Of a stretch of DNA of 64,000 nucleotides, positions 1,955-22,288 are shown piece by piece. This stretch comes from Hoylesella nanceiensis DSM 19126 = JCM 15639 (lineage in GTDB: Bacteria > Bacteroidota > Bacteroidia > Bacteroidales > Bacteroidaceae), in NCBI RefSeq assembly GCF_000379965.1, contig NZ_KB904332.1, positions 181,688 to 245,687 of the forward strand. The letters are read 5' to 3'. A model generated the notes under the pieces. It saw only the letters and a program-made list of their open reading frames with translations. It did no database searches and had not been told where the DNA came from. Every line of letters starts with the position of its first letter. The first letter of the stretch is position 1. The position numbers were made by a program, and so were the translations under genes.

Positions 1955-1975
1955 AAAATACAACGAAATACAGTT

Positions 1976-3430: not shown

Positions 3431-3469
3431 GAGAACAAGCAGATTTAACGTTTTTAATGCACAAAGAAT

Positions 3470-4804
3470 ATGGCAGATAACGCATTTAACGACAGCGGAA
3501 GAGTAGAATTTATATCAGCTAAGAAGGCTAAAAGTATAATAAAAGTAATTGGTGTTGGAGGTGGAGGCGGTAACGCTGTAAACCACATGTATAGAGAAGG
3601 AATCCACGATGTAACCTTCTTGGTTTGCAACACCGACCGACAAGCACTCGAAGACTCACCCATTCCAGACAGACTTCAATTGGGAGACGAAGGTTTGGGA
3701 GCAGGAACTAATCCTATAAAGGGTCGTACCGAGGCTGAAAACAGCATCGAACAAATCCGTGCAAAGCTAAGCGATGGCACCAAGATGGTATTTATCACCG
3801 CCGGAATGGGTGGTGGAACTGGTACAGGTGCTGGTCCTATCGTAGCGAAAGTAAGTAAGGAAATGGACATTCTTACAGTGGGAATCGTCACCATTCCATT
3901 TATTTTCGAGGGTGCAAAGAAAATCGATCAAGCTTTAGATGGTGTGGAAGAGATGGCTAAAAACGTTGATGCTCTTTTGGTTATCAACAACGAACGCCTC
4001 AGAGAAATATACCCTTCGCTTGGTGTTTTAGATGCTTTTGGAAAGGCAGACGACACTCTTAGCATCGCAGCACGAAGCATTGCAGAGATAATCACAGAAC
4101 ATGGTATTATCAATGTCGACTTCCAAGACGTTAAAAACGTATTGAGAGAAGGCGGAGTAGCTATCATGAGTACTGGTTATGGCGAAGGTGAAGGCAGATT
4201 AAGAAAGGCTATTGAAGATGCACTTAACTCGCCTCTACTCAACGATAACGACATCTATAACTCAAAGAAAATCCTTTTAAGCATCAAGATTAGTGACGAC
4301 AAGGACGAAAAGACCAAATTCACTATGGAAGAGATGAACGAGGTTCACGAGTTTATGGGTAAGATTACAGGCGACTATGAGTCGAAGTTTGGATTGTCTG
4401 TAGATCCTGAATTGGGCGAAAAAGTAAAGGTTACCATTCTTGCAACGGGCTTCGGTATGAAAGATATCGATGTTGTTGAGAACCATATGAACAAGAAAGA
4501 AGCTCAAGAAGAGGCTATCAACAACGCCAAAAAGCAACAAGAAGTGGCTCAAAAGATGATGCTCAGAGGTAAGTATTACGGCGGAGATGTGGCGCACAGA
4601 AATGCAAAACGCAATTTCAACGTGTTCCTATTCGATTCTGAAGACTTATCAAATGAAGAGATTATCCTTGAAGTAGAGAAGATACCAACCTACAAACGTA
4701 GTATCAAAGCACTCGAAGACATTCGTCGTAAGCTAAAAAAAGAGCCTACAAACGATAACAACGATGGCCAAGAACCTATACAAGGGCTCATCACATTTGC
4801 ATAA
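3470..4804 (+). CDS. ftsZ: Cell division protein FtsZ
   Basis: Tubulin-like GTPase that forms the Z ring. The nucleotide-binding loop (GVGGGGGNAVNHM) lies near residue 26 and the tubulin signature (GGGTGTGAGP) near 114. The T7-loop and H8 region (NVDFQDVKNVL) follows. A likely conserved C-terminal peptide (EVEKIPTYKR, about 401-410) is followed by an unusual extra 34 residues ending in GLITFA. Length is 444. Last of the division genes here; a GatB/YqeY-domain gene follows after 30 bp. Confidence 0.98.
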   Translation: MADNAFNDSGRVEFISAKKAKSIIKVIGVGGGGGNAVNHMYREGIHDVTFLVCNTDRQALEDSPIPDRLQLGDEGLGAGTNPIKGRTEAENSIEQIRAKLSDGTKMVFITAGMGGGTGTGAGPIVAKVSKEMDILTVGIVTIPFIFEGAKKIDQALDGVEEMAKNVDALLVINNERLREIYPSLGVLDAFGKADDTLSIAARSIAEIITEHGIINVDFQDVKNVLREGGVAIMSTGYGEGEGRLRKAIEDALNSPLLNDNDIYNSKKILLSIKISDDKDEKTKFTMEEMNEVHEFMGKITGDYESKFGLSVDPELGEKVKVTILATGFGMKDIDVVENHMNKKEAQEEAINNAKKQQEVAQKMMLRGKYYGGDVAHRNAKRNFNVFLFDSEDLSNEEIILEVEKIPTYKRSIKALEDIRRKLKKEPTNDNNDGQEPIQGLITFA

Positions 4805-4834
4805 ATAAGAACGTAAAATATCAATTATAGAGAT

Positions 4835-5284
4835 ATGGAACTATTCGAACAAATCAGCAATGACATTAAAGACGCAATGAAAGCACGTGACAAAGTGCGC
4901 TTAGAAACATTGCGTAACATTAAGAAAGTGTTCCTTGAAGCAAAGACAGCACCTGGTGCAAACGATCAATTAAGCGATGCAGATGCTCTTAAAATACTTC
5001 AGAAACTTGCTAAACAAGGCAAAGAATCTGCCGCAACTTTCACTCAGTCGGGTCGTGAAGACTTAGCTGCTCACGAAATAGAACAGGTGAAAGTGATCGA
5101 AGCATACTTGCCTAAGCCTCTTTCTAACGAAGAGATTGAGAAGATAGTAGCTAACATTATCAGCGAAACAGGGGCACAAGGTATGAAAGATATGGGCAAA
5201 GTGATGGGACAAGCAAGCAAACAAATGGCTGGAAAAGCAGAGGGTGGAACCATCTCTACCATCGTTAAGAAGTTGCTTTCTTAA
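4835..5284 (+). CDS. GatB/YqeY domain-containing protein
   Basis: A 149-residue protein of the YqeY family, related to the tail domain of amidotransferase subunit GatB that contacts tRNA. Typical family features are an N-terminal helical segment (MELFEQISNDIKDAMKARDKVRLETLRNI) and a C-terminal region (GAQGMKDMGKVMGQASKQM). The cellular role is not established; a link to tRNA-dependent amidation is only suggested by homology. It lies 30 bp after ftsZ and is followed by a terminator, so it probably closes the operon. Confidence 0.92.
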   Translation: MELFEQISNDIKDAMKARDKVRLETLRNIKKVFLEAKTAPGANDQLSDADALKILQKLAKQGKESAATFTQSGREDLAAHEIEQVKVIEAYLPKPLSNEEIEKIVANIISETGAQGMKDMGKVMGQASKQMAGKAEGGTISTIVKKLLS

Positions 5285-5341
5285 TCGTTTCGAAGCACAA
5301 TAACGCCTCAGCAACAATGTTTGCAGGCACATAATATCATT

Positions 5342-5378
5342 AAACTCCAATGCACTCCGTGTGTTGGAGTTTCTTTTT
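5342..5378 (+). terminator. Rho-independent terminator after the ftsZ operon
   Basis: Inverted repeat AAACTCCAA / TTGGAGTTT with a 13-base loop, followed by TCTTTTTAT. It lies 58 bp after the YqeY-domain gene. Confidence 0.8.
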
Positions 5379-5390
5379 ATCCCTCAAAAA

Positions 5391-5470
5391 GCAGTGCTTT
5401 TACGGTTCAATTGCATTGCTTTTTGCACCCAATATCAATGCTTTTCCAAGCCAATAACATCGCTTTTACT
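5391..5470. repeat. 22-bp-period intergenic repeat array A
   Basis: The core GCTTTT (complement AAAAGC) starts at 5396, 5418, 5440 and 5462, exactly 22 bp apart each time, with ATTG/ATCA-type sequence before each. The first unit is part of a near-palindrome, AAAAGCAGTGCTTTT. The array begins 13 bp after a terminator. Together with the terminator and a promoter candidate it fills the gap 5285-5683. Confidence 0.75.
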
Positions 5471-5547
5471 TTCAACCTGCATAAGTCTTTGACTTACATA
5501 ACAAGAAAATGAATTGCAAAGCGATGAGTTATGTAATGTTTTTTTTG

Positions 5548-5555
5548 TACTTTTG
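5548..5555 (+). promoter_or_regulatory. Possible -7 box upstream of the PASTA gene
   Basis: TACTTTTG fits the Bacteroidetes TAnnTTTG -7 consensus and lies about 130 bp before the chosen PASTA gene start. No clear TTG-type -33 element is seen at the expected spacing, so this is weak. Confidence 0.4.
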
Positions 5556-5683
5556 CAAAGAAGAGGCGCCACCTATTTATATAATAGCACGCACCCTTGC
5601 AGTTCACTCGTTATGAGATACCTCACTATAAACAAAACCATCTGAAACGTGTGGACATCATTTTGCAAACGAAAAAGAAACAA

Positions 5684-6343
5684 ATGAAATCGTCAGAATT
5701 TATAGGTAAGTTTAAAAGTAGATATCTTTGGCTCAACATTCTCGGTATGATAGCCGTGGTATTGATTTGCATTTTTGGCTTGAAATATGGCTTATCGATC
5801 TACACTCATCATGGAGAAGCCATCACAGTGCCTCATCTTAAGTTTAAATCTTATCAAGAAGCAGAAGCTCAACTCAAGCGTTTAGGACTTGAATTGCAGG
5901 TAGTAGACACTGGTTATATCAAAACCTTGCCTGCTGATTGTATCCTCGAACAAATCCCCAAGGGTGGCGAAAGGGTCAAATCAGGTCGCATCATCTACCT
6001 CACCATCAACTCTTCTAAATCACCAACAATCACTCTTCCCGACGTAATCGACAACAGTTCGCTCCGTGAAGCAATGGCCAAATTGCAGTCAATGGGCTTT
6101 AAGCTCACTGCACCTAAGCAGGTTCCCGGTGAGAAAGACTGGGTCTATGGCATCATGGTAGGCGACAAAAGCGTTGTAGCAGGCGAGAAAATTCCTGTAG
6201 ATAAACCGCTAACTATTATGGTTGGGAATGGTATGCGCAGTGCAAGTGATAGTGTAAGCTATGTTGAACCCATATATCGTAACAACAATTCAGGCAGTAA
6301 TGACGTCGATGATTTCGAAGAAGTGTCTGTCCCTGGCGAGTAA
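5684..6343 (+). CDS. PASTA domain-containing membrane protein
   Basis: A 219-residue protein with a short cytoplasmic N-terminus, one transmembrane helix (about residues 18-40, LNILGMIAVVLICIFGLKYGL) and extracytoplasmic PASTA-like repeats (TVPHLKFKSYQEAEAQLKRLGLEL, shortened here to VPHLKFKSYQEAEAQL; then LPDVIDNSSLREAMAKLQSMG). PASTA domains bind muropeptides or beta-lactams in other proteins. No kinase or transpeptidase domain is attached. I chose ATG 5684 over the in-frame TTG at 5597 because the latter would add 29 residues with no signal features. Next to RluD and Ddl genes, a common Bacteroidetes order. Confidence 0.87.
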   Translation: MKSSEFIGKFKSRYLWLNILGMIAVVLICIFGLKYGLSIYTHHGEAITVPHLKFKSYQEAEAQLKRLGLELQVVDTGYIKTLPADCILEQIPKGGERVKSGRIIYLTINSSKSPTITLPDVIDNSSLREAMAKLQSMGFKLTAPKQVPGEKDWVYGIMVGDKSVVAGEKIPVDKPLTIMVGNGMRSASDSVSYVEPIYRNNNSGSNDVDDFEEVSVPGE

Positions 6344-6390
6344 TTTGCCAAAGAGAAGTTGCGATATCATCAAACAAAAACATTTTATTT

Positions 6391-7467
6391 GTGATTAAAG
6401 ACGAAAATATTTCAATAGATAACGACGAGCTATTAGAAGACGAAGATCAACAACTTTACGAACATTTTCGCATCGTTGCCGACGAAGGTCAGAAGCCTTT
6501 GCGAGTGGATAAGTTTATGTTCGAAAAGCTTCAACATAGTAGTCGAAACAGAATTCAAAAGGCTGCAGAGGCTGGTTTCGTGCATGTGAACGACCAACCA
6601 GTGAAGAGTAACTATAAAATTCGTCCCAACGACGTGGTTACTTTGATGCTCGATCGCCCCCGACACGATAACACTATCGAGGCAGAGGACATTCCTTTGG
6701 ATATTGTTTACGAAGATACTGAATTGCTTGTAGTGAACAAACCTGCTGGACTTGTGGTGCACCCAGGTGTGGGAAACTTTCATGGTACGCTGATAAATGC
6801 CGTTGCATGGCACATGAAAGACGATAAAAACTTCGACGCAAACAGTCCTGAAGTGGGCTTGGTGCATCGCATCGACAAGGATACAAGTGGTTTATTGGTG
6901 GTGGCAAAGACTCCTAATGCCAAAACAAAGTTAGGTGTTCAGTTCTTTAATAAAACCACTACACGAAGCTATAAGGCTCTTGTTTGGGGACATATCGCTG
7001 AAGATGAGGGCAGAATTGAAGGCAACATCGGTCGTGATCCCAAAGATCGTCAACGCATGACTGTATTCTCTCCCGACTCAGGAATAGGCAAACCGGCCGT
7101 TACTCACTATAAAGTTCTCGAGCGTTTTGGCTACACTACGCTCATTGAGTGTATCTTAGAGACTGGAAGAACGCACCAAATACGTGCTCATATGAAGCAT
7201 ATCGGTCACCCATTGTTTGGAGATGAACGCTATGGAGGTAAGGAAATACTTCGTGGTAACAGAAGTTCAAGCTACAAATCGTTTGTTCAAAACTGCTTTA
7301 ATATATGCAATAGACAAGCACTTCACGCACAAACACTGGGTTTTGTGCACCCTTCTACTCAAAAAGAATGTTACTTTACATCGCCATTGCCTGAAGATTT
7401 AGACACAATGTTAAACAAATGGCGTGTGTATATAGAAGGAACTAATAACGATACTTTCAATAATTGA
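6391..7467 (+). CDS. rluD: RluD-family 23S rRNA pseudouridine synthase
   Basis: A 358-residue enzyme that converts uridine to pseudouridine in large-subunit rRNA. An S4-like RNA-binding domain lies at about 37-95 (LRVDKFMFEKLQ...GFVHVND). The RluA/RluD catalytic domain follows, with the active-site motif HRIDKDTSGLLVVAK, whose Asp is catalytic. The GRTHQIRAHM motif is also present. It starts with GTG. An acidic N-terminal stretch of about 25 residues precedes the S4 domain. RluD specificity (helix 69) is inferred from the S4 fusion, not shown. Confidence 0.9.
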   Translation: MIKDENISIDNDELLEDEDQQLYEHFRIVADEGQKPLRVDKFMFEKLQHSSRNRIQKAAEAGFVHVNDQPVKSNYKIRPNDVVTLMLDRPRHDNTIEAEDIPLDIVYEDTELLVVNKPAGLVVHPGVGNFHGTLINAVAWHMKDDKNFDANSPEVGLVHRIDKDTSGLLVVAKTPNAKTKLGVQFFNKTTTRSYKALVWGHIAEDEGRIEGNIGRDPKDRQRMTVFSPDSGIGKPAVTHYKVLERFGYTTLIECILETGRTHQIRAHMKHIGHPLFGDERYGGKEILRGNRSSSYKSFVQNCFNICNRQALHAQTLGFVHPSTQKECYFTSPLPEDLDTMLNKWRVYIEGTNNDTFNN

Positions 7468-7487
7468 AAAACAAAGAATAAGCAAAA

Positions 7488-8486
7488 ATGACTCAAAAAA
7501 GAAATATTGCCATTGTATGTGGTGGCTACTCATCAGAACACGAGGTATCTTTACGCTCGGCACAAGGTATTTATTCGTTCTTCGATAAAGAGCGTTACAA
7601 CGTTTATATCGTTGAAATCAGTAAAGAAGCATGGTGGGTGAACGTTGAAGAAAACCAACAACTGCCAATTGATAAGAACGACTTCTCGTTTGAGTTAAAT
7701 GGCAATAAGGTGGCATTCGATTATGCTTACATCACGATTCACGGCACTCCTGGTGAGAATGGACTACTTCAAGGCTACTTTGATATGATTCAATTGCCCT
7801 ACTCTACCTCTGGTGTTTTGGTGGAAGCAATGACCTTTAACAAGTTTGTTTTGAACAATTACCTTCGTGGTTTTGGCTATAATGTGGCTAAAAGTATGGT
7901 AGTTTACAAAGACGAAGCACACAAAATAAACGCAGAAAAGATTGAGAGTGAACTCGGAATGCCTTGCTTTATTAAGCCAGCAGCCGACGGTTCGAGCTTT
8001 GGAGTATCGAAAGTGAAGACCAAAAGCGATATTCCTGCTGCCTTAGAGCTTGCCTTTAACGAAAGCAATGAGGTGATGATTGAAAGCTTTTTACAAGGAA
8101 CTGAAATCTCAATAGGCTGCTATGCCACTAAAGAAGGATTGGTTTCGCTTCCTGCAACCGAAGTAGTTACAGAGAATGAGTTCTTCGATTACAACGCAAA
8201 ATACAACGGACAGGTGCAAGAAATCACCCCTGCTCGCCTTCAACCAGACACTGCAGAGCGTGTAGCTAACCAAGTAAAGGAAATCTATTCGCTATTACGT
8301 TGCAACGGAATTATACGTATTGACTACATCATTAGCAAGGATTCAGAAGGCAATGACGTTCTCAATCTATTGGAAATCAACACCACTCCTGGTATGACTG
8401 CAACAAGTTTCATTCCTCAACAGGTGCGTGCTGCAGGCTTAAACATGACTGATGTGCTTACAAACATCGTAGAACGTCAATTCTAA
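7488..8486 (+). CDS. ddl: D-alanine--D-alanine ligase
   Basis: An ATP-grasp enzyme that joins two D-alanines for the peptidoglycan precursor. The N-terminal motif IVCGGYSSEHEVSLRSA is typical of Ddl. Others are HGTPGENGLLQGYFDM, the ATP-grasp segment CFIKPAADGSSFGVSKV and the metal-binding end region LLEINTTPGMTATSFIPQQ. Length (332) fits the family. It lies 20 bp after the rluD-type gene and probably shares its transcript. Confidence 0.96.
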   Translation: MTQKRNIAIVCGGYSSEHEVSLRSAQGIYSFFDKERYNVYIVEISKEAWWVNVEENQQLPIDKNDFSFELNGNKVAFDYAYITIHGTPGENGLLQGYFDMIQLPYSTSGVLVEAMTFNKFVLNNYLRGFGYNVAKSMVVYKDEAHKINAEKIESELGMPCFIKPAADGSSFGVSKVKTKSDIPAALELAFNESNEVMIESFLQGTEISIGCYATKEGLVSLPATEVVTENEFFDYNAKYNGQVQEITPARLQPDTAERVANQVKEIYSLLRCNGIIRIDYIISKDSEGNDVLNLLEINTTPGMTATSFIPQQVRAAGLNMTDVLTNIVERQF

Positions 8487-8527
8487 AACATAACATTTTC
8501 ATCTTAAACATCAAATACTTTAAAGAT

Positions 8528-9676
8528 ATGATGATACCTGAAGAGTTTAAAGACATACGCCCTTTCGAGCCAGAAGAATTGCCCGAGGCGATTGATAGGA
8601 TATTTAGTAGCGAGCAATTCCGCTCTGTTTTGCCTTATTTCTTCCCTGAAATACCCGTTGAAACGCTTCATCAAAAGATGAAAGAGGCAAAGAACAGCAT
8701 GGAATTTCAACGTGCTTTTAGTTATCATTTCGTGTATCGGGTGCTCAATAATACATCTAAATCGGTTTCATTTAACAGCGATGCGATAGACAAAAGCAAG
8801 CATTTCACGTTCTTAAGTAACCACCGTGACATTGTATTAGACTCAGCAATTCTCGACGTATTACTAATAGATGCAGGCTTTGACACCTCTTGTGAGATTG
8901 CAATTGGCGACAACTTGCTATCTCTTCCATGGGTAAAAGACCTTGTAAGAGTGAACAAATCGTTCATTGTTGAACGTGGTTTGTCCCCTCGTCAGATGCT
9001 CATTGCCAGCAAACGCCTATCTAACTACATGCATTTTGTGATGACCAACAAAAGCGAAAACATTTGGATTGCGCAACGAGAAGGCAGAGCAAAGGATTCA
9101 AACGACCGCACTCAAGAGGCTCTTTTGAAGATGCTTACCATCGGAGGAGAAGGCTCTTTGGCAGATAAACTAAAGGAAATGCACATCGTTCCCTTAGCTA
9201 TTTCGTACGAATACGACCCTTGCGACTATCTAAAGGCAATGGAGTTCCAACTAAAGAGAGACAATCCTGAGTATAAAAAGAGTGCTCAAGACGATATATT
9301 AAGTATGCAAACAGGCATCATGGGCTATAAAGGTCGCATTCATTATCATTGTGCAGAGTGCATAGATCCATTCCTTGAATCGCTCGACAGCGAACTTTCT
9401 AAGAACAATTTTTATGCAACTGTGGCACAACACATCGACCAACAAATACATGCTAACTATCGTTTGTTTGCCAATAACTACATTGCTCTCGACCTATTAG
9501 AGAACAATAACCAATATAGTAACTATTACACACACGAAGAAAAGCAATCTTTCGAAGGCTATATCGCTGGTCAATTGAATAAAATTCAAATCGAAAACAA
9601 AGATGAAGCCTATCTTCGTGAGCGTATATTAACAATGTATGCCAACCCAGCAATTAATCATTTTAAAGCTATATGA
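8528..9676 (+). CDS. Putative 1-acyl-sn-glycerol-3-phosphate acyltransferase family protein
   Basis: A 382-residue protein with a PlsC/GPAT-like core: the motif SNHRDIVLDSAIL (about 97-109), resembling the His...Asp acyltransferase motif, and a second block IWIAQREGRAKDSNDRTQ resembling the phosphate-binding block. In Bacteroidales this longer form is usually annotated as a glycerolipid acyltransferase. The spacing between His and Asp is five residues rather than four, so the exact reaction is uncertain. It overlaps the next lipoprotein gene by 4 bp (ATGA), pointing to translational coupling. Confidence 0.75.
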   Translation: MMIPEEFKDIRPFEPEELPEAIDRIFSSEQFRSVLPYFFPEIPVETLHQKMKEAKNSMEFQRAFSYHFVYRVLNNTSKSVSFNSDAIDKSKHFTFLSNHRDIVLDSAILDVLLIDAGFDTSCEIAIGDNLLSLPWVKDLVRVNKSFIVERGLSPRQMLIASKRLSNYMHFVMTNKSENIWIAQREGRAKDSNDRTQEALLKMLTIGGEGSLADKLKEMHIVPLAISYEYDPCDYLKAMEFQLKRDNPEYKKSAQDDILSMQTGIMGYKGRIHYHCAECIDPFLESLDSELSKNNFYATVAQHIDQQIHANYRLFANNYIALDLLENNNQYSNYYTHEEKQSFEGYIAGQLNKIQIENKDEAYLRERILTMYANPAINHFKAI

Positions 9677-10329
9677 AAATAAAATCTATTATTGGTGCAG
9701 CCCTAGTACTATTAACAGCCTGCACTTCTAACACCTTTGAAGGTGGAGATGGAAACAATTCTTACCTAAAACGAGATGCCGCAGAGGTAACTATTAACAA
9801 GCAAGACCAAACTGCAAACATCGTATTTGACGATGATCAGAAAGCAAGTGTCAAGCTTCCTACAACACATCCATGGTTAACTGGCACTGAAACTTTCTAT
9901 CGTGCAATAGTTACTTATCGTGAAAAAGATCAGGTAAAGTCTATCTTAGGCTTCATTCCTATGATGCTTCTTCAACCTGTTACACAAACAACTGAAGACG
10001 TAAAGAGCGACCCTGTGTTGTATGTTGCATCGAGTTTTGCTAAGAATAAGAAGTATTTGAACGTTCAACTAACTGTTCCAATGCGCTTAGAGAATGTAAA
10101 AGACAAGCCCATTAACATCTCTATTGCTGAAAAAAAGCACGCAATGAGCACGGGAAACAACACACATTATATTTGGACGGTGGTGTTTAGCAACAAAGAA
10201 ACCACCAACAATGTAACTGAACCAGCGTTGTTAAGCATTCCAACATCACAACTTGTTAAAGGCGATTCTTTAACGCTTAGAATACAAAACGGCATTAGAT
10301 TAGAAGAACTAAAAGGCGTTATGCAATAA
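9673..10329 (+). CDS. Putative lipoprotein of unknown function
   Basis: A 218-residue protein with a lipoprotein signal (lipobox LTAC, Cys17) and a mature part of alternating strands; no enzyme motif is visible. The start ATG overlaps the stop of the acyltransferase gene by 4 bp, so the two are probably co-translated and may act together at the envelope. I do not recognise a named family. A strong bidirectional terminator follows. Confidence 0.75.
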   Translation: MKIKSIIGAALVLLTACTSNTFEGGDGNNSYLKRDAAEVTINKQDQTANIVFDDDQKASVKLPTTHPWLTGTETFYRAIVTYREKDQVKSILGFIPMMLLQPVTQTTEDVKSDPVLYVASSFAKNKKYLNVQLTVPMRLENVKDKPINISIAEKKHAMSTGNNTHYIWTVVFSNKETTNNVTEPALLSIPTSQLVKGDSLTLRIQNGIRLEELKGVMQ

Positions 10330-10333
10330 AAAG

Positions 10334-10368
10334 AAGCTACTGCTTAAAGGCAGTAGCTTTTATTTTAT
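10334..10368. terminator. Bidirectional terminator between convergent genes
   Basis: Perfect stem AAGCTACTGC / GCAGTAGCTT with a 6-base loop, flanked by A-rich sequence on the left and T-rich on the right. It can serve both the lipoprotein gene (+) and the M16 peptidase gene (-), whose stop codons face each other. Confidence 0.9.
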
Positions 10369-11609
10369 TCTAAAATGAGGGTGAATAAACGATTGGGATC
10401 GAATATTTCTCTCGATACATTCATAATCTCTTGAGGTGTAATAGCATCGATTTCGGCAAACAAATCATCGATAGACTTCATCTCATTAAAATACAAATAG
10501 GCTTTTGAAAAGTCGAGTGCAAAGCTCTCTCTACTATCACATGACACTGCAATTTGCCCCTTTAACTGTTGCTTTGCGCTTGCAATTTGCTTGGCTGTTA
10601 GCATGGTGTCGCATAGGCGTTGCATTTCTTTTTTCACCAAGGCGATGCACTTTTTAAGGTCGTGAGGGTCGCAACCAAAGTACACACTCCACACTCCTAC
10701 GTCGCTATAACACACCATCGAGCTATCAACACTATACACTAAGCCTCGTTTTTCACGCAAAGCAATAGATAAACGAGCGTTCATTCCTGGTCCACCTAAT
10801 ATGTTATTCAACAAATAAAGCACCACACGCTGCTTGTTATACACGCTAAACGACTTGGCACCTATCATGACATGGCATTGGTGGGTGTTGCGTTTTATGA
10901 CCTTTTGAGTGCCTTCTACGCCCGTTGTTTTCGATATATCGGTAGGCAAAAGCGCATCCTTTTGCAAATAAGGAGTAGCCTCTGGGAAAACACTTGTTAG
11001 CTTATCGAGTTGCTGAACCAATCGTTTAAAGTCGATATCTCCATACACAAAGAACACCATATTACTGGGTTGATACATTCGTTGTGTAAATCTTTGGGCA
11101 TCGGCAGTGGTGAATTGTCGCACATTTTCGGCCTTTCCCAAAATGTTATGACCCAAGGCTGCACTGCCAAAAAGCTCTTGTTCGAAATAATCGTAAATGA
11201 GTTCTGAGGGTGAATCGTTATAACTCTCTATCTCATCGCAAATCACTTCTACCTCTTTTGCTATCTCTTTTTGTGGATAAACGCTGTTAAATACCATGTC
11301 GGTAAGCACTTCTACAGCCTTATAAACATGCTTCGACAATATCGCTGCATGATAAACGGTTGTTTCTTTGGTTGTAAAAGCATTTAAATCGCCACCATAT
11401 TGCTCCAAACTGTTGATGATATTACGTGCCGAACGCTTTGCTGTGCCTTTGAAAGACATGTGCTCACAGAAATGCGCTAAGCCCTCTTCGTGGCTCAACT
11501 CATCTCTTGTTCCTGCCTTAATGTAATATCCACAATACACCACTTGTGATGAATGAGGAACGCAAACCAGGCGTAATCCGTTGGAAAATGTATGCGTTTG
11601 ATGTGTCAT
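10365..11609 (-). CDS. M16-family zinc peptidase (pitrilysin type)
   Basis: A 414-residue processing-peptidase-like protein. The inverted zinc motif HFCEH (His46, Glu49, His50) is followed by the distal Glu region EVEVICDEIESYNDSP, completing the M16 active site. The C-terminal half has the inactive M16 domain (LGGPGMNARLSIALREKRGLVYSV). I chose ATG 11609, which opens MTHQTHTFSNGLRLV, the usual start of the family. The 17-codon upstream extension lies in poorly coding sequence. The substrate is unknown. It is transcribed away from mutS across a 195-bp gap that holds repeat array B. Confidence 0.92.
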   Translation of the reverse strand: MTHQTHTFSNGLRLVCVPHSSQVVYCGYYIKAGTRDELSHEEGLAHFCEHMSFKGTAKRSARNIINSLEQYGGDLNAFTTKETTVYHAAILSKHVYKAVEVLTDMVFNSVYPQKEIAKEVEVICDEIESYNDSPSELIYDYFEQELFGSAALGHNILGKAENVRQFTTADAQRFTQRMYQPSNMVFFVYGDIDFKRLVQQLDKLTSVFPEATPYLQKDALLPTDISKTTGVEGTQKVIKRNTHQCHVMIGAKSFSVYNKQRVVLYLLNNILGGPGMNARLSIALREKRGLVYSVDSSMVCYSDVGVWSVYFGCDPHDLKKCIALVKKEMQRLCDTMLTAKQIASAKQQLKGQIAVSCDSRESFALDFSKAYLYFNEMKSIDDLFAEIDAITPQEIMNVSREIFDPNRLFTLILE

Positions 11610-11644
11610 AGATGGGCAAAGGTAGTATATTTTTGCGAGAATTG

Positions 11645-11780
11645 AATGTAAAAGCACCACTATTAAAGTTTAAAAGCAATGATATTGCACCCTAAAAGCA
11701 TTGATATTACACTGCAAAAGCACTGCTATTACCGCACCAAAAGAACAATGCCACACTGCAAATGCAATGTGGCAATAGCT
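11645..11780. repeat. 22-bp-period intergenic repeat array B
   Basis: AAAAGC-type cores start at 11650, 11672, 11694, 11716, 11739 and 11760: spacings 22, 22, 22, 23 and 21. The typical unit reads CTAAAAGCATTGATATTAC. This is the longest array seen, with six units. It fills the gap between the mutS stop and the M16 peptidase start, and its last unit overlaps a GCCACA/TGTGGC hairpin (about 11750-11775). Confidence 0.85.
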
Positions 11781-11803
11781 AAAAGACGATTATAAAGGAC
11801 GCT

Positions 11804-14425
11804 TTATCCTTTGACAATCTTCTTAATATCGTTTAATTTATTGAGTGCTTCAACGGGAGTTAAGTTGTTAATATCGAGGTGTAAGAACTCATCTCGTATC
11901 TGAATGAGCACTGGATCGTCTAACTTAAAGAAGCTAAGTTGTACGTTTTCGTTAGGCTCATCGAGCTTATTTATAGCGTTCTTCGATACCTCTCCCACTT
12001 GATCGTTGTTCTTTTCGAGCTGTTTCAAAATAACATTTGCACGCTTAACAATGCTCTTTGGCATGCCAGCAATGTCGGCAACGTGAATACCAAACGAGTG
12101 TTCTGAACCGCCTTCTACCAGCTTTCGCATAAACATCACTTTGCCATTGGCTTCTTTCACACTTACATTGAAGTTCTTAATGCGCTCGAATCGCTTCTCC
12201 ATCTCATTGAGTTCGTGGTAGTGAGTGGCAAAAAGTGTGCGTGCTCTTGCCTTTGGTTGCTCGTGAAGATACTCGACAATGGCCCACGCAATGCTTATTC
12301 CATCATAGGTAGATGTGCCTCTTCCCAACTCATCGAACAAGATAAGAGAACGTGAAGACACGTTATTGAGGATGTTTGCAGCCTCTGTCATCTCTACCAT
12401 AAAGGTTGATTCGCCCACCGATATGTTATCGCTTGCCCCTACACGGGTGAAGATTTTGTCTACAACACCTATGCTTGCACTATGTGCAGGCACGAAACTT
12501 CCGACCTGAGCCAATAGCACTATGAGGGCAGTTTGGCGCAAAAGAGCTGATTTACCCGCCATATTAGGACCTGTAATCATCATAATTTGCTGCTTTTCGC
12601 TATCGAGCAGAATGTCATTGGGCACATAACGCTCTCCAATAGGTAGTTGCATTTCGATAACTGGGTGTCTTCCTGCCTTGATATCGAGCACTTCTGTGGT
12701 GTTAATCTCTGGTCGAACATAATGGTTCGACTGTGCTACTGAAGCGAAAGAGTGCAAACAATCGATGCGAGCAATGATGTTGGCATTGATTTGTATTTGT
12801 GGAATAAACTCTTGAAGAGCCACTATCAGGTCGTTAAAGATTTGCGCTTCGAGTGCCAAAATCTTATCTTCTGCACCTAAAATCTTCTCTTCATACTCTT
12901 TCAACTCTTGTGTAATATAGCGTTCTGCCTGCGCAAGAGTCTGCTTACGAACCCACTCTTGGGGCACTTTATCTTTGTGCATGTTGCGCACTTCGAGGTA
13001 ATATCCAAACACATTGTTATAGCCTATCTTCAAAGAAGAAATGCCTGTTTGCTCTACTTCACGCTCTTGAATGTGCAAAAGATAGTCTTTTCCTGAGTGA
13101 GATATTGCTCTTAACTCGTCTAACTCGGCGTTCACCCCATCGGCAATAACGCCTCCTTTGTTCACAAGTTGTGGTGGGTCGGAGGTGATTTCTTTTGCTA
13201 TTCGAGCACGAATAGACTCGCATAGGGTGATTTGTTCGCCCATTCGCACTAAAGATTCGTTCTTTGAAGCCACACAAGCCGCCTTAATTGGCTCGATAGC
13301 GTCGAGTGCATAGCGCAATTGAACAACCTCTCTAGGAGACACTCTGCCCACTGCTACACGAGAAATGATGCGCTCTAAGTCGCCAATACGATGAAGTTGG
13401 TCGGACAACACCTGCTCAAAGTCTTCACTATTATAGATGTGTTCTACCACATTAAGGCGTTGTTCTATTGCTTTTTGCTCTTTCAATGGGAATACTAACC
13501 AGCGTTTGAGCATGCGACTACCCATTGGTGTGATGGTGTTATCAATAACATTGAGCAATGAACTACCGCCTTCGTGCATCGAATTGATGAGCTCTAAGCT
13601 GCGAATAGTGAATTTATCGAGGCGCACATAACGGTCTTCTTCTATGCGAGAGATGGATGTTATGTGACTGATATTGGTGTGTTGGGTGATTTCAAGATAC
13701 TGCATAATGGCCCCAGAAGCGATGATTCCATTGACAAGATGGTCGATTCCGAAACCTTTAAGTGTTTGTGTTCCGAAGTGCTTCAATAGCTTTTGACGGG
13801 CTGTTGATTCGGTAAAAACCCAATCATCAAGCTCGAATGTGCAATATTTATCGCCAAAATATTGGTTGAACTGTTGCTTATTATCTCTATCGAACAACAC
13901 TTCTTTGGGCGAAAAGTTCACCAACAACTTCTCTATTGTATCGTATGAGCCTTCTCCTGTTAAGAATTCGCCTGTTGAGATGTCGAGAAATGCAACACCA
14001 CAAGAGGCTTTTCCGAAATGAATGGCAGCTAAAAAGTTGTTTTCTTTATAGTTTAATACATTGTCTGCCAATGCAACTCCGGGCGTAACCAGTTCGGTTA
14101 TACCACGTTTAACAAGCTTTTTTGTTAGTTTGGGGTCTTCTAATTGGTCGCAAATAGCCACTCGTCGTCCCGCACGAACAAGCTTTGGAAGATAAGTATC
14201 CAAAGCATGGTGAGGGAAACCAGCCATCTCTGTAACCGCAGATGAGCCGCCATTGTTTCGTTTGGTGAGCGTTATCCCTAATATCTTCGATGCTTCTACA
14301 GCGTCTTGTGAATATGTTTCGTAGAAATCTCCACAACGAAAAAGCAATATTGCATCTGGATGTTGATGCTTAAATGTGAAAAATTGCTTCATCATTGGGG
14401 TGAGTCCTTTATCTTTAACTGCCAT
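11804..14425 (-). CDS. mutS: DNA mismatch repair protein MutS
   Basis: An 873-residue mismatch-recognition ATPase. The mismatch-binding motif (GDFYETY, the Phe-x-Glu site) is in the N-terminal domain. Connector, core and clamp regions follow. The C-terminal ABC-type ATPase has Walker [12 protein letters not shown] (Lys625), the STFMVEM signature and Walker [17 protein letters not shown] chose ATG 14425 ([15 protein letters not shown]), the usual MutS opening; the longer frame to 14464 adds 13 unlikely residues. It stands alone, with no mutL beside it. Confidence 0.97.
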
Positions 14426-14556
14426 AATAAATCGTTGTAAATTATGCCATCTGCCTACAAACAAGCAGGCATGGCGCTATTTATGCAAAGATAATAAATT
14501 TAATGCAGAATGAAGATGAAGACGAAACAAAAGAATAAAGCTCTAAATCTTATTCA

Positions 14557-14973
14557 TTATTTTTTTGCTTCTTGCTCAAATCTAAGCCGAGTACGAACGT
14601 CTCCTGCTGTAAATTCAAATATTGTTATGCGCACCTTTGAGGTGGTATTTGGCTCAAATACAACAGTCATCACGTTCTTATTGACAGTTGTTTTAAGCCA
14701 AGGAGTTAATGAAACGGGGGAAATAGTTGTTGAATTGGGATCTTTAAATGGATGTCTATCAACTGTAAATGAATATTGATCGACCGAGAATGACTCGTAG
14801 TTGGTGCAGGTTACGTGAATTGTTCCACCCTCTGCAGGCACAGAAATGGTGTTTTGACCTTTAAGATTGGTGTCTGAAACAAGATGTATAGGTTCAGTCT
14901 TTTCGCAAGAAGTGGTGATTGCAAGGAGCGAAAATACTGCAAGAAGGGTTAAAAGTAGATTTTTCTTTAACAT
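14557..14973 (-). CDS. Small lipoprotein with BACON-like domain, copy 1
   Basis: A 138-residue lipoprotein with signal MLKKNLLLTLLAVFSLLAI and lipobox Cys23. The mature part has the alternation seen in BACON domains: VPAEGGTIHVTCTNYESF, then WLK, then a strand rich in Thr and a final FEFTAGDVRTRLRFEQEA. BACON domains occur in surface proteins of Bacteroidetes; ligand unknown. It is a tandem paralogue of the gene at 15241-15669. Signal peptides are identical but the mature parts differ at about 27 positions. Confidence 0.8.
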   Translation of the reverse strand: MLKKNLLLTLLAVFSLLAITTSCEKTEPIHLVSDTNLKGQNTISVPAEGGTIHVTCTNYESFSVDQYSFTVDRHPFKDPNSTTISPVSLTPWLKTTVNKNVMTVVFEPNTTSKVRITIFEFTAGDVRTRLRFEQEAKK

Positions 14974-15082
14974 GATATTTTACGTTTAAGTTATGATTAG
15001 TTATTGTTTTTAGATAACGTAGAAAGTTATTGGTTCTCTTTCAACAAGATGATCCACTGAAGAAACATACCTCTCTACTCCA

Positions 15083-15113
15083 CAAAGATACAAGTTTATC
15101 TCTAAAAGTCAAA
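15083..15113 (-). promoter_or_regulatory. Promoter of BACON-like gene copy 1
   Basis: On the minus strand TTTG (15113-15110), 19 bp, then TATCTTTG (15090-15083). This matches the Bacteroidetes -33/-7 pattern. The leader to the start codon is about 100 nt and is nearly identical in copy 2. Confidence 0.7.
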
Positions 15114-15240
15114 CTTTTGAAGAAAATAATCTGTGTTGAGAGGCTTTATTATCGCTTTTTTATTCCTATACCTCTCTCCTCTTTGCTCAAAAGATATAAG
15201 AGAATAGGACATAAAAGAATAAAGCTCTAAATCTTATTCA

Positions 15241-15669
15241 TTATTTTTTTGCTTCTTGCTCAAATGTAAGCCAAGCAAAAATATCTCCTGCTGTAATTTC
15301 AAATCTTGTTGTGCGCACCTTTGAGGTGGTATTTGGCTCAACCACAACAGTCATCACGTTCTTTTTGACAGCTGCTTTAAGCCAAGGAGTTGATAAAACG
15401 GGGGAAATAGCTGTTGAATTGGGAGCTTTAAATGGTTGTCCATCAACTGTAACTGAATTTTCAGAGAACCAGAATGACTCGTAGTTGGTGCAGGTTACGT
15501 GAATTGTTCCACCCTCTGCAGGCACTAAAATGGTGTTTTGACCTTTAAGATTGGTGTCTGAAACAAGCTGCATTGGTTCCCATTCCCAGGTAGTCTTTTC
15601 GCAAGAAGTGGTGATTGCAAGGAGTGAAAATACTGCAAGAAGGGTTAAAAGTAGATTTTTCTTTAACAT
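15241..15669 (-). CDS. Small lipoprotein with BACON-like domain, copy 2
   Basis: A 142-residue lipoprotein with a signal peptide and lipobox (Cys23) identical to copy 1, and a four-residue insert (TWEW region) right after it. The C-terminal part reads FEITAGDIFAWLTFEQEA, closer to the classical BACON ending (Trp present) than copy 1, where this Trp is Arg. It is probably the less altered copy. Function unknown; it is expected at the outer membrane surface or periplasm. Confidence 0.8.
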   Translation of the reverse strand: MLKKNLLLTLLAVFSLLAITTSCEKTTWEWEPMQLVSDTNLKGQNTILVPAEGGTIHVTCTNYESFWFSENSVTVDGQPFKAPNSTAISPVLSTPWLKAAVKKNVMTVVVEPNTTSKVRTTRFEITAGDIFAWLTFEQEAKK

Positions 15670-15779
15670 GATATTTTTACGTTTAAGTTATGATTAGTTA
15701 TTGGTTTTAGATAACGTAGAAAGTTATTGGTTCTCTTTCAACAAGGTGAGCCACTGAAGAAACACATCTCTCTACTCAA

Positions 15780-15810
15780 CAAAGATACAACTTTATCTCT
15801 AAAAGTCAAA
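15780..15810 (-). promoter_or_regulatory. Promoter of BACON-like gene copy 2
   Basis: Minus strand TTTG (15810-15807), 19 bp, TATCTTTG (15787-15780); same layout as copy 1. Confidence 0.7.
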
Positions 15811-16048
15811 CTTTTGAAGAAAATGATCTGTGTTGAGAGGCTTTATTATCGCTTTTTTTATTCCTATACCTCTCTCCTCTTTGCTCAAAAGACATAAGAG
15901 AATAGGACATAAAAGAATAAAAGACAGCTCTAATCAAAGCCTGAAATAAAAGTAAGAGACTAGTATGTAATAGATTAAGAAATAAGAAAATGACAAAAGA
16001 ACTATCTGTTTTGCCAACATTAAGCAACCTAACAATAGGACAAAAAGA

Positions 16049-16080
16049 AAGAGGGAAACAATATTTCATGTTTCCCTCTT
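16049..16080 (-). terminator. Terminator of the ribosomal protein block
   Basis: Perfect 12-bp stem AAGAGGGAAACA / TGTTTCCCTCTT with an 8-base loop. The A-rich stretch on the left gives the T-tract on the minus strand. It lies 24 bp past the rplQ stop and ends the long translation block. Confidence 0.9.
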
Positions 16081-16104
16081 ATATCATATTTGCATAACAA
16101 GCAA

Positions 16105-16587
16105 TTATTCTGCTGTTGCTTCTTCAACCTTTTCAGCTGTTGCTTCAGGAGCTGCAGCTTCTTTTGTTGCAGTAGTCTTACGGCTACGACGTGTTTTCTT
16201 AGCAGCTTTAGGAGCTTTTGCCATGTTTTCATTGTAGTCAACAAGCTCGATAAATGCCATTTCAGCAGCGTCACCTTGACGTGTACCCAACTTGATTACA
16301 CGAGTGTAACCACCTGGACGGTCAGCAACTTTTGTTGAAATTTCTTTGAAAAGCTCTGTTACAGCATATTTATTTTGCAAGTAACGGAAAACAACACGAC
16401 GTGAGTTTGTTGTATCTTCCTTTGAACGTGTGATCAAAGGCTCTACATATTTCTTAAGAGCTTTTGCTTTTGCAAGAGTCGTAGTGATTCTTTTGTGCAT
16501 AATCAACGAGATAGCCATGTTTGCAAGCATAGCACTACGGTGAGATGCAGTACGACCCAAATGGTTGAATTTTTTATTGTGTCTCAT
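16105..16587 (-). CDS. rplQ: 50S ribosomal protein L17
   Basis: A 160-residue protein. The L17 core is about 1-115 ([21 protein letters not shown]...). A basic then acidic C-terminal tail follows, rich in Lys, Ala and Glu, as in other Bacteroidetes L17. L17 binds several 23S rRNA domains near the exit tunnel. Last gene of the alpha operon, after rpoA, and followed by a strong terminator. Confidence 0.97.
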
Positions 16588-16682
16588 TATTTGTTTTAAT
16601 TTTTAAGATGAGAAAAGATCTATATAAATAGCTTGCAATTGCTAGTCGGTCATAAAAAACAACTGCATGCTATCATAATTTC

Positions 16683-17675
16683 TTATTCTCTGTCTAATTT
16701 ATACTTTGAAATATCTGTTCCAAAAGATAGATTCAGACTCTCGAGCAAATCATCAAGCTCAGAAAGCGATTTCTTACCAAAGTTGCGGAACTTAAGAAGA
16801 TCTGTCTTATTGAATTGTACAAGGTCGCCTAATGTTTCAACATCTGCTGCCTTTAAGCAATTCAACGCACGAACAGAAAGATTCATATCAACCAACTTAG
16901 TCTTTAACAATTGGCGCATATGTAATACTTCTTCATCGAATTCATCATTGCTGTCTTGCTCTGGATTTTCAAGAGTAATCTTTTCATCAGAGAACAACAT
17001 GAAGTGATAAATAAGTATCTTAGCTGCTTCTTTAAGTGCATCTTTAGGACTTATGGAACCATCCGTTGTAACTTCTAATACGAGTTTATCGTAGTCGGTC
17101 TTTTGTTCAACACGATAAGGCTCTACTGAATATTTTACATTACGGATTGGGGTGTAGATAGAATCGATTGGGAGAACATTGACATCGGTGCTGTATTGAC
17201 GATTCTCATCAGCAGGAACATAACCACGTCCCTTGTTAATTGTAATGTCTATCTGCATCGATGCTTTGGCATCTAAATGACAAATCACCAAATCAGGGTT
17301 TAACACTTCAAATCCAGTCAGATACTTACCCATATCGCCAGCCTTGAACTCTGTTGTGTTCTCGACTGTGATACTAACTTTCTCATTCTCGAATTCATCT
17401 ACTACTTGCTTGAATCTTACTTGTTTTAAATTCAAGATAATGTTGGTAACATCTTCCTTTACACCAGGAACTGAAGAGAATTCGTGCTCAACACCACCAA
17501 TTTTGATTGTGTTGATTGCGAAACCTTCAAGTGATGAAAGAAGGATGCGGCGCAAAGCGTTACCAATAGTAACACCAAAGCCAGGCTCTAAAGGACGGAA
17601 CTCGAACTTTCCGAACTTGTCGTTTGCCTCCAGCATTACAACTTTATCAGGTTTTTGAAATGCTAATATCGCCAT
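16683..17675 (-). CDS. rpoA: DNA-directed RNA polymerase subunit alpha
   Basis: A 330-residue subunit that starts polymerase assembly. The N-terminal dimerisation domain contains [19 protein letters not shown]. The C-terminal domain (about 255-325) has [23 protein letters not shown], the DNA- and activator-binding fold. It lies between rpsD and rplQ in the standard alpha-operon order; only 12 bp separate it from rpsD. Confidence 0.98.
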
Positions 17676-17687
17676 TAATTTAATGAT

Positions 17688-18293
17688 TTATTTAGAGTAC
17701 AACTCAACGATTAATTGTTCCTTAATGTTCTCAGGAATATCTGCTCTCTCAGGAGTATGCAAGAATTTACCGCTCTTTGTAGCGTTATCCCATTCAATCC
17801 AAGGATATTTGCTGTGGTTAAAACCTGCTAGAGCTGTTTCAATAACTTCTAGAGATTTAGCCTTTTCACGAACACCAATAACTTGACCTGGTTTTACTGA
17901 GTATGAAGGAATGTTTACAACACTACCATCTACGATGATATGTTTGTGTCCAACTAGCTGACGAGCAGCTGCACGTGTAGGTGCAAGACCCATACGGAAC
18001 ACAACATTATCAAGACGAGACTCTAGAAGTTGTAGCAAAACTTCACCGGTAATACCTGAAGCCTTAGCTGCTTTCTCGAACAAGTTACGGAACTGACGTT
18101 CTAGAACGCCGTAAGTATATTTAGCCTTTTGCTTCTCTGCCAACATGACACCGTACTCAGACATCTTCTTACGACGGTTGTTGCCATGCTGTCCAGGAGG
18201 GAAGTTTCTCTTGGACAAAACTTTGTCAGCACCGAAAATGGGTTCACCAAAACGGCGTGCAATCTTAGATTTCGGACCTATATATCTAGCCAT
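17688..18293 (-). CDS. rpsD: 30S ribosomal protein S4
   Basis: A 201-residue primary 16S rRNA binder. The N-terminus is [21 protein letters not shown] and the S4 RNA-binding domain lies at about 92-155 ([24 protein letters not shown]). The N-terminal zinc cysteines of some S4 proteins are absent. In many bacteria S4 represses its own operon; no specific site can be pointed out here. Confidence 0.98.
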
Positions 18294-18350
18294 AATTAAT
18301 TATAATGTGCTTTTAAATAATTTCTTTTTATATAAACCTCAGAATAAGGA

Positions 18351-18740
18351 TTATACTTTTCTTCTCTTTGGAGGACGGCAACCATTGTGTGGTAATGGTG
18401 TAACGTCGATAATTTCTGTAACTTCAATTCCAGAACCATGCACTGCACGGATTGCAGACTCACGTCCGTTACCTGGACCTTTAACGTAAGCTTTAACCTT
18501 TCTTAAACCAAGATCAAAAGCTACTTTAGCACAATCTTCACCAGCCATTTGAGCTGCGTATGGTGTATTCTTCTTAGAACCACGGAAGCCCATCTTACCT
18601 GCAGAAGACCAAGAGATAACTTGTCCTTCTCCGTTAGCTAAAGATACGATAATATTATTGAATGAACTATGAACATGAAGTTGACCAACTGCGTCAACTC
18701 TCACATTTCTTTTCTTAGATGTTGCTGCTTTCTTTGCCAT
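18351..18740 (-). CDS. rpsK: 30S ribosomal protein S11
   Basis: A 129-residue platform protein with the signature [23 protein letters not shown] and the C-terminus [12 protein letters not shown]. It lies between rpsM and rpsD as expected. The basic N-terminus ([14 protein letters not shown]) is typical of the phylum. Confidence 0.98.
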
Positions 18741-18822
18741 AATTACTTTTAGTTTAAAAGTGGAAAGTATTAATAGGGTTGCTCAAAAATATAGAGCTAC
18801 TATATTAACTTTTCAACTATTT

Positions 18823-19203
18823 TTACTTAGTAGCTTTCTTCTTATTAGCAACAGTCTTCTTCTTACCCTTACGAGTACGAGCATTATTCTTCGTACTTTG
18901 ACCACGAACAGGAAGACCATTACGGTGACGAATACCACGATAACAACCAATATCCATCAAACGCTTGATGTTCATTTGGATCTCTGAACGGAGATCACCT
19001 TCTACTTTGAATTCAGCGCCGATAATTTCACGGATTTTAGCTGCTTGATCGTCAGTCCATTCACTAACCTTCAAGTCGCGGCTCACGCCGGCTTTATCCA
19101 ATATCTTTGCTGAACTACTTCGACCAATGCCATAAACATAAGTCAATGCGATTTCGCCACGCTTATTTTGGGGCAAATCTACTCCAACAATTCTTATTGC
19201 CAT
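18823..19203 (-). CDS. rpsM: 30S ribosomal protein S13
   Basis: A 126-residue head protein that contacts the P-site tRNA and 23S rRNA bridge. The sequence shows helix-two-turn-helix regions and the C-terminal tail [19 protein letters not shown], which reaches the P site. It follows rpmJ after a 114-bp gap. Confidence 0.98.
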
Positions 19204-19317
19204 TTGTAATTTTAATAATTAAAACTGATTAAACCTTAACTTTTTATTAGTTGATTTTTTAATTTTAAATCTAATCGCTCGCAAAGATACGATTTTTTAT
19301 TAAAACTTCCAACTAAA

Positions 19318-19434
19318 TTAACCCTGACGTGTTTTAAACTTAGGATTTTTCTTGTTAATTACGAATAAACGACCCTTACGACGTACAATTTTGCAGTCTG
19401 CTGAGCGTTTTTTTAACGATGCTCTTGTCTTCAT
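19318..19434 (-). CDS. rpmJ: 50S ribosomal protein L36, zinc-independent form
   Basis: A 38-residue protein found by translating the minus strand from ATG 19434 to TAA 19318: [14 protein letters not shown], then [20 protein letters not shown], then TRQG. The zinc ribbon of the common form (Cys11, Cys14, Cys27, His33) is broken: position 11 is Ser, 27 is Asn and 33 is Phe, and only Cys14 remains. It lies 9 bp after infA in the usual order. Confidence 0.95.
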
Positions 19435-19443
19435 ATTTCTATT

Positions 19444-19662
19444 TTATTTATATCGGAAAACGATACGTCCCTTTGTCAAATCATAAGGACTCATCTCTAC
19501 TTTAACTTTATCTCCTGGTAAAATCTTGATGTAGTGCATACGCATCTTACCTGAGATGTGAGCTGTAATAGGACATCCATTTTCTAATTCTACACGAAAC
19601 ATTGCATTAGATAATGCTTCAACAATTGTTCCGTCTTGTTCTATCGCAGATTGTTTTGCCAT
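19444..19662 (-). CDS. infA: Translation initiation factor IF-1
   Basis: A 72-residue single OB-fold protein that occupies the ribosomal A site during initiation. The sequence is near-universal in form ([20 protein letters not shown]... [21 protein letters not shown]). It starts 2 bp after the map stop, implying tight coupling. Confidence 0.98.
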
Positions 19663-19664
19663 AT

Positions 19665-20465: not shown

Positions 20466-20479
20466 TATAGAGATGTATT

Positions 20480-21817: not shown

Positions 21818-21820
21818 TTC

Positions 21821-22267: not shown

Positions 22268-22288
22268 AATTAATCTAATTTAAATTTA

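Follow-up and report, generated by a model that had tools for sequence, protein, structure and literature searches.

REP and BIME elements are dispersed intergenic palindromes of species-specific sequence that go with a RAYT transposase, while the sites of Noc, SlmA and MatP are single palindromic sites spread for a nucleoid protein. Nucleosomes are positioned rotationally by AA/TT steps with a period of about 10.2, also in coding sequence. REP/BIME elements and RAYT are the subject of PMC2817692 and PMC3733652. A-tract AA/TT periodicity of 10-11 bp is known in prokaryotic chromosomes, according to the accessible portions of several papers (PMC3940949, PMC3431218, PMC4132750, PMC1242344, PMC7537859, PMC4060949), and the cause of this bacterial rhythm of about 11 bp has long been debated without a physical anchor. 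In those portions, the studies use separations of 30-100 bp (PMC3431218) or describe signals of ~100 bp (PMC4132750), the AA/TT bias is gone beyond 70 bp (PMC1242344), and longer coherent curvature is described in transposase halves (PMC4132750).

The window analyzed here, a stretch of 64 kb (C6:181688-245687) from a genome of 2.65 Mb in 12 contigs, can be compared with each of these systems. As in A-tract periodicity, an AA/TT period near 11 bp persists across much of the chromosomal DNA read; it differs, as far as the accessible portions of the A-tract papers go, in being coherent over about 2 kb and phase-locked to discrete palindrome arrays. These arrays are, like REP/BIME elements, dispersed intergenic palindromes with species-specific sequence, but they come with no Y1 match and no conserved hairpin, and they have a nearly fixed unit number, a 22-bp step and a register with the surrounding DNA. 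Palindromic sites across the chromosome recall those of Noc, SlmA and MatP, whereas here they form tandem sets at two helix turns, number hundreds by extrapolation and have a lattice around them. Periodic AA/TT in coding DNA is shared with nucleosome positioning, yet the period here is 10.98, the anchors are strong palindrome arrays and the setting is bacterial. The weak periodicity of ~11 bp is already known in bacteria; anchoring arrays with a kilobase phase lock were not found in the literature searched, coverage of which was incomplete, with most subscription papers outside it. Discrete elements that set the phase of the rhythm make the question of its cause testable.

The preliminary description had noted a 22-bp beat in at least seven gaps, and the seven that it listed all hold arrays at the positions it gave, the pattern being more extensive than claimed. 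Each of the seven intergenic arrays consists of four 22-bp near-palindromes with the core YAAWAGCAWTGCTWTTR, the outline of the unit in register being TGYAAWAGCAWTGCTWTTACA (22 bp). Array 1 lies at 5384..5471 (profile score 77) and array 2 at 11647..11734 (profile score 88), the latter with mutS (minus strand, 11804-14464, supported by a MutS domain V match) on one side and the next minus-strand gene on the other. A fifth and a sixth unit that had been placed at 11739 and 11760 are not sustained: they score -11.8 and 0.4 bits, whereas each of the preceding four reaches 16-26. Array 3 (38106..38193) has 90% identity with array 4 (40655..40742), which has two paralogous gaps without an array nearby. 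Array 5 (46148..46235) sits between the preceding gene and a TPP riboswitch downstream (46523-46617, 56.1 bits) that is itself upstream of the gene at 46654; no other Rfam match was found in the window. Array 6 (54239..54325) had been listed as 54242/54264/(54307). The array is there, with four units in all, and the odd position of 54307 results from a 1-bp deletion that separates units 2 and 3. Array 7 (56149..56236) shares 93% identity with array 6 over 84 query bases, with flanks that are dissimilar by eye. An RNA element was considered and rejected: folding five of the seven arrays of the window gave z values from -0.66 to -4.79 and no structure shared among them. We also observed a run of four minus-strand genes at 38216-41986, each followed, by eye, by a hairpin AAATGCGnCA...TGnCGCATTT, and two of these gaps have an array past the hairpin; Pfam gave no match for any of the encoded proteins.

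On a four-unit profile, the training set of which included some of the window arrays, six of the seven arrays score 72-88, and array 6, split by its deletion, scores 18.7 and 31.5. The top score in 20 Markov shuffles is -7.8. Intergenic 6-mer identities at 22 bp number 42 pairs, against a mean of 8.4 (sd 6.6) over distances of 8-69. The genome search with a 22-bp periodic profile that had been proposed was carried out on 464 kb (the window and 20 further stretches) and returned 73 arrays, with 0 positions above threshold in the reversed-sequence control; counting array 6 of the window, the total is 74, and plain extrapolation gives ~420 per genome. With one window array as query, at least 57 matches with an E of 1 or less were obtained in the genome, 40 of 186 candidates having been scored, and a sequence-only model found at least 174 over the two strands, with 150 of its 3562 candidates scored. 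The matches listed are spread over eight of the 12 contigs (C1, C2 and C5-C10), a distribution that may make the terminus-like protein that had been suggested less likely. A sequence-blind scan of 400 kb outside the window found 78 four-unit repeats at lag 22, compared to 10, 3, 3 and 6 at lags 17, 19, 20 and 21 and 0 at each of lags 23, 25, 26, 28 and 29.

The unit number is nearly fixed. At a threshold of 8 we counted 181 single units, and chains had two units in 8 cases, three in 2, four in 68, five in 0 and six in 1, which amounts to exactly four units in 68 of the 79 runs of at least two; the corresponding counts at thresholds of 10, 12 and 14 are 59/74, 53/75 and 41/74, the other chains having two or three units except for one of six at 10. 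The reversed control contained 65 singles and 0 chains. Successive units at threshold 8 are spaced by 22 bp in 218 cases, by 44 in 4 and by 21 in 3. The median distance between arrays is 4.5 kb (55 arrays on a 300-kb piece), and the 10% quantile of this spacing, 2612 bp, exceeds the 1387 bp obtained by random placement in gaps of at least 150 bp, a value of that size being reached in 0 of 2000 simulations; the coefficient of variation is ordinary, equally low in 0.18 of simulations.

Within the unit, conservation is 95-97% for AA at positions 4-5 and for TT at 17-18, and 82-90% for the central CA.TG. The half-site AAAAGC occurs in 246 of 584 halves, the others being a few variants such as AATAGC, AATTGC and AAACTC. 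That the units are near-palindromes stands insofar as their halves are related by a dyad, but perfect palindromes are avoided: only 20 of 292 units have two consensus halves, versus 51.5 expected, while 206 have one AAAAGC half and 66 have none, versus 97.5 expected. Complementarity of the half-sites (1219/1752) is below that of shuffled halves (1284 +- 11), and no conserved hairpin covariation or compensating change is seen in the 292 units. Because of the bias toward one consensus half and the lack of hairpin covariation, the symmetry is of the kind that a dimeric protein on double-stranded DNA would have.

The arrays are surrounded by a lattice of AA/TT steps. With the arrays masked, the AA/TT peak lies at 10.98 bp in coding and 11.00 bp in noncoding DNA, and 10.98 is half of 21.96. 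The frequency of AA at unit position 4, for which the mean is 0.134, runs outward as 0.42, 0.54, 0.41, 0.43, 0.38, 0.33, 0.28 and on to the right and as 0.33, 0.42, 0.46, 0.30, 0.36, 0.25 to the left. The best AA period outside the arrays is 22.0 on both sides, the repeat being 22 bp close to arrays and tending to 11 bp farther away. Of 22 shifts of a softened profile, the in-phase one scores highest at all 10 unit distances (sides pooled) and, over pooled ranges, out to 60 units (1.3 kb), dropping to rank 4 at 61-90; the in-phase score in coding DNA alone is -1.88 versus -4.43 (sd 0.44). The same test in other genomes, in which arrays longer than four units inflate the nearest distances, gave rank 1 at 7 of 8 distances in G010, 6 in G016 (5 of the first 7), 6 in G006, 4 in G003 and 3 in G012, the in-phase rank being lost beyond 3 units in G012 and at 4-6 units in G003.

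We also measured the phase of the AA/TT signal within 1.5 kb of each array, with duplicates removed, against 1000 jittered sets. Phase lock is strong in the source genome (R 0.88, n=73, reached by 0/1000 sets), in G016 (R 0.87, n=18, 0/1000) and in G010 (R 0.77, n=12, 0/1000), with further values of R 0.74 in G003 (n=7, 13/1000), 0.72 in G006 (n=6, 37/1000) and 0.78 in G017 (n=4, 85/1000), and it is not seen in the five arrays of G012 (R 0.40, 490/1000). The autocorrelation amplitude falls from 0.0216 at 22-220 bp to 0.0092 at 1.3-2.6 kb, 0.0033 at 2.6-5.3 kb and 0.0017 at 5.3-10.6 kb, while block shuffling at 3 kb, done three times, leaves 0.0207-0.0208, 0.0033-0.0041, about 0, and -0.0016 to 0.0002; from this decay relative to the shuffles, coherence extends over about 2 kb, with a weak remainder to 5 kb. 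A coherence of 10-20 kb read from normalized spectral power was rejected, as a 3-kb block shuffle keeps that power, and long-lag power is used here as a measure of lattice strength, not of coherence. There is a tendency for adjacent arrays to lie in a common 21.96-bp register (z 19.8, n=68, versus at most 9.35 in 300 jittered sets), with R of 0.66 below 4 kb, 0.52 at 4-8 kb and 0.38 at 8-16 kb (0/300 each), and the shared register is not clear beyond 16 kb, where 2 and 1 of 300 null sets reach the observed values.

The lattice continues through coding DNA, mostly in synonymous codons. Coding-only power aligned on 55 arrays is 863; synonymous shuffling within genes reduces it to 65-92 (eight shuffles), and jittering the arrays by as much as 11 bp reduces it to 0.4-89 (20 sets). 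A/T at third codon positions alone has the same period. About a tenth of the power, with a phase R of 0.59-0.71, remains after synonymous shuffling, which suggests some trace in amino-acid order. The known A-tract signal likewise lies largely in third codon positions, according to the accessible part of PMC4132750.

Lattice power per 2 kb (noise = 1) is 5.6-28.7 in positions 1..20000 of the window, where the AA/TT period is 10.98 bp, and 10.3-28.2 in 34000..58000, which includes arrays 3-7. Between them lies a lattice-poor, array-free stretch (20000..34000, power 1.2-5.1) whose genes, by Pfam, include SecY, ribosomal proteins S5, L6, L5, S3, L2, L3 and S7, and EF-G. The known signal is weak at highly expressed genes in the accessible part of PMC3431218; here this ribosomal-protein to EF-G stretch shows 1.2-5.1 against mostly 5-29. 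Low-lattice regions were picked by inspection, and the window also has a power of 1.8 at a BspA-like leucine-rich repeat gene, while the 2 kb at RNA polymerase alpha (rpoA) are not especially low (6.5). Across the 300-kb piece, 93% of 1.5-kb windows have a power above 3, and 17 two-kb windows, only some of them assigned to genes, fall under 3. These include a region with a GH3 glycosidase, a TonB-receptor plug (SusC-like) and two SusD genes, a fimbrillin-like gene and a PEPCK gene.

To look beyond the source genome, we compared 80 named Bacteroidales MutS loci (0.99 Mb), to which its own MutS is 68-78% identical, with the best matches in Prevotella records, so that the source genome counts as Prevotella-like. 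A motif conserved across species was rejected, the motifs being different, and a sequence-blind scan by lag and palindrome was used instead. By lag alone, 24 repeats were found at lag 22, compared to 8, 5, 1, 8, 2 and 9 at lags 16, 18, 20, 21, 23 and 24, of which those divisible by three may be coding repeats. With the palindrome criterion, 38 were found at lag 22, compared to 18, 4, 3, 2 and 13 at lags 16, 17, 19, 20 and 21 and 5, 8, 0, 1 and 0 at lags 23, 24, 25, 26 and 28; at a palindrome score of at least 1.0, 7 of 10 lag-16 repeats come from one locus, and two at lag 21 resemble the same kind of array. In most of the named loci just one array was seen, so that use throughout the species is presumed. 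Array sequence is species-specific, with TTTCACATTAGTGAAAC in Phocaeicola oris and TGCCGATATATATCGGCA in Parabacteroides sp. 52.

Genomes of the same genus have the same 22-bp step with other sequences and about 3-8 units: AAAAGCTATGCTTTT in G012, AAAACCTAYGGTTTT in G006 and G017, AAAAG.T.ACCTTTT in G010 and ATTTG...CAAAT in G016. Five units occur in 4 of 5 distinct G012 arrays, four to eight in G006, four to six in G017, mostly four to six in G016, and three to five in both G010 (12 arrays) and G003 (7 arrays). Motifs obtained by EM in G004, G008, G009, G020, G023 and G025 look unlike the arrays, and these genomes, together with G001, G005 and G007 (1-3 arrays each), were not used further. 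At 1480-1653 of locus L185 of G006 there are two more adjacent 22-bp palindrome arrays, TAAATCAAATTGATTTG-like and TAAATTAAATTAATTTG-like, which differ in sequence from each other and are additional to the main G006 motif.

The best power inside mutS is 37 in the source genome, 20 in G010, 15 in G016, 14 in G006 and 13 in G017, and it does not exceed 6.4 in any of the remaining 15 genomes, including G003 and G012. Among 75 named loci of at least 7 kb, three are strong (54-90; Prevotella sp. UBA1705, HJM029 and Prevotellaceae S29M_St_24) and a handful are moderate (12.6-17). Long-lag power is 140-733 in the source genome, G016, G010, the three strong named loci and one G003 stretch, 26-56 in G017, G012, G070 and G006, 3-19 in the same-genus G042, G057, G007 and G020, and at most 16.0 in 36 stretches from outside the genus (other genera, other families and E. 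coli). Some Bacteroidales have arrays without a detectable lattice, and array and lattice are therefore separable.

Our best explanation, to which we would give a probability of roughly 0.55, is that the arrays are nucleation sites for a protein-DNA assembly that covers much of the chromosome, and that they set its phase. A regular assembly is suggested because strong dyad arrays recur every few kilobases in phase with a weak preference between them. In each array, four strong sites clustered together would bind a dimeric protein that reads the DNA sequence, with one dimer per two helix turns and all dimers on one face. Bound arrays would set the rotational phase of the assembly, be it a coat, a filament or a regular wrapping, which would reach one to two kilobases each way, across genes, with a weak AA/TT preference on the contacted face. 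With neighbors in one 21.96-bp register, assemblies from adjacent arrays could join without a seam, and some usually highly transcribed genes would lie outside. The phased binding array of the preliminary description fits such an arrangement in its 22-bp step, its dyad units and an AA/TT phase extending far beyond the array. We infer the bound protein, its dimeric state, its spreading and its part in nucleoid organization from patterns in the DNA. A more specific proposal, for which we see slightly less than an even chance, is a chromosome in a fixed rotational register, in which a species-specific protein would sit on tetra-palindrome anchors every few kilobases and polymerize along or wrap the intervening DNA at 21.96 bp per unit, with a footprint in codon choice, the most transcribed genes outside and motif turnover between sister species that leaves the geometry unchanged. 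Against the assembly stands the unit number, which is four here yet five in 4 of 5 G012 arrays and about 3-8 elsewhere; moreover, since the motifs differ within one genus, hundreds of sites would need to change with the protein. The missing phase lock in G012, the early loss of in-phase rank in G012 and G003, and the Bacteroidales arrays that lack a detectable lattice also count against it. Should a protein be found, some of Prevotella would possess a regular chromatin with a register extending into codon choice, and the rapid turnover of anchor motifs would prompt one to ask how a single protein can change in concert with hundreds of sites.

The main rival, which we consider unlikely while taking it seriously, is a supercoil anchor without a coat: arrays would hold the ends or apices of plectonemic supercoil loops, and the 10.98-bp lattice would reflect the right-handed writhe of negatively supercoiled DNA, with no continuous coat. 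According to the accessible text of PMC4132750 and PMC7537859, periods close to 11 bp are commonly associated with negative supercoiling; the median array distance of 4.5 kb suits loop ends, and highly expressed genes of other bacteria lie in low-periodicity DNA in the part of PMC3431218 that is accessible. However, the AA phase near arrays repeats at 22 bp, not 11 bp, which suggests a protein with a two-turn repeat, and PMC7537859, in its accessible part, argues that the period does not track supercoiling. Mutation bias in supercoiled DNA, again without a coat, could be the source of part of the lattice.

That the arrays are REP/BIME-like selfish repeats spread by a transposase seems improbable. 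Their dispersed, palindromic and intergenic character, with convergent gaps filled most often, speaks for it, as do five pairs of arrays that are near-copies of 81-90% identity with unrelated flanks in the pairs inspected. A filled gap also lies beside paralogous empty ones, and the alignment of these gaps, with inexact boundaries, is consistent with insertion of an array into gap 4. The REP-associated transposase-like gene that was to be sought is not apparent: PF01797 (Y1 transposase) has 0 matches in the source genome and in array-bearing G003, G012 and G017, although it is present in 4 of the 10 genomes searched, namely array-bearing G006, G010 and G016, and G007. Nor are there conserved hairpins, complementarity being below shuffled, or any enrichment of target-site duplications at arrays over shuffles, and the arrays are phase-locked with DNA kilobases away. 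The REP/BIME family suggested earlier is disfavored here, with the near-copies speaking for it.

About as doubtful is the reading of the arrays as operators of a global transcription factor. Half-sites of dimer type with graded strength would suit operators, as would the 40 of 69 classified arrays that lie in tandem gaps, the others being in convergent (20) and divergent (9) gaps; 61 of the 69 are clear of called ORFs, and 8 overlap one, by a simple ORF caller. When copies were mapped against gene orientation, as had been proposed, convergent gaps proved to be the most often filled (13/20 gaps of at least 180 bp, compared to 32/70 tandem and 7/18 divergent), which counts against operators and only partly favors the 3' boundary element suggested earlier. 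The distance from array to next start is variable in 36 tandem cases (median 164 bp, -14 to 963), and operators leave the lattice in coding DNA 1 kb away unexplained. An artifact of composition, codon structure or the profile search is hardly credible, for although the profile was trained on arrays that it then finds, long-lag power overstated coherence, and codons and amphipathic helices can give periods of about 11 bp, it is opposed by the sequence-blind scans across lags, the reversed controls, the jittering of array positions and the synonymous shuffles, by 22 not being a multiple of three, and by absence of the lattice in the 36 stretches from outside the genus.

For the assembly that we favor, we examined several candidate proteins, and searches among AsnC/Lrp, HU, HU-HIG, ParB and Y1 transposase matches found no binding protein. 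AsnC/Lrp, which we take to be the best guess by oligomer size, was rejected, as its recognition helix is constant where array motifs differ: SGAAIHQRIQKL is found in G000 (the source genome), G017, G004 and G014 (4 read of 11 matches grouped by score), and a second group has SRAAIHQRVQHL in G017, G003, G010, G012, G016 and G020. A second ParB-type (ParB/Noc) binder was set aside on a single HTH_ParB match in G000, and HU-HIG as a partner does not fit. An HU family confined to lattice-bearing genomes was rejected, as PF00216 has matches in all 14 genomes searched, whether or not they show the lattice; a special HU, as a paralogue or sequence variant, could still serve as the coat.

Some other repeats were observed in the comparison loci. 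L162 and L163 (G009) contain several arrays of 7-bp units (GTCAACT, GTCACCT or GTCAATT), with little at lag 22. Units of the form GTTTCAC-4 bp-GTGAAAC occur at 3469 in L069 (Phocaeicola oris) and at 6598 in L215 (G003) and look to us like parS half-sites pushed apart. Arrays at 3189 in L159 (G003) and at 3694 in L023 are like the palindrome arrays, with a step of 21 bp instead of 22 bp.
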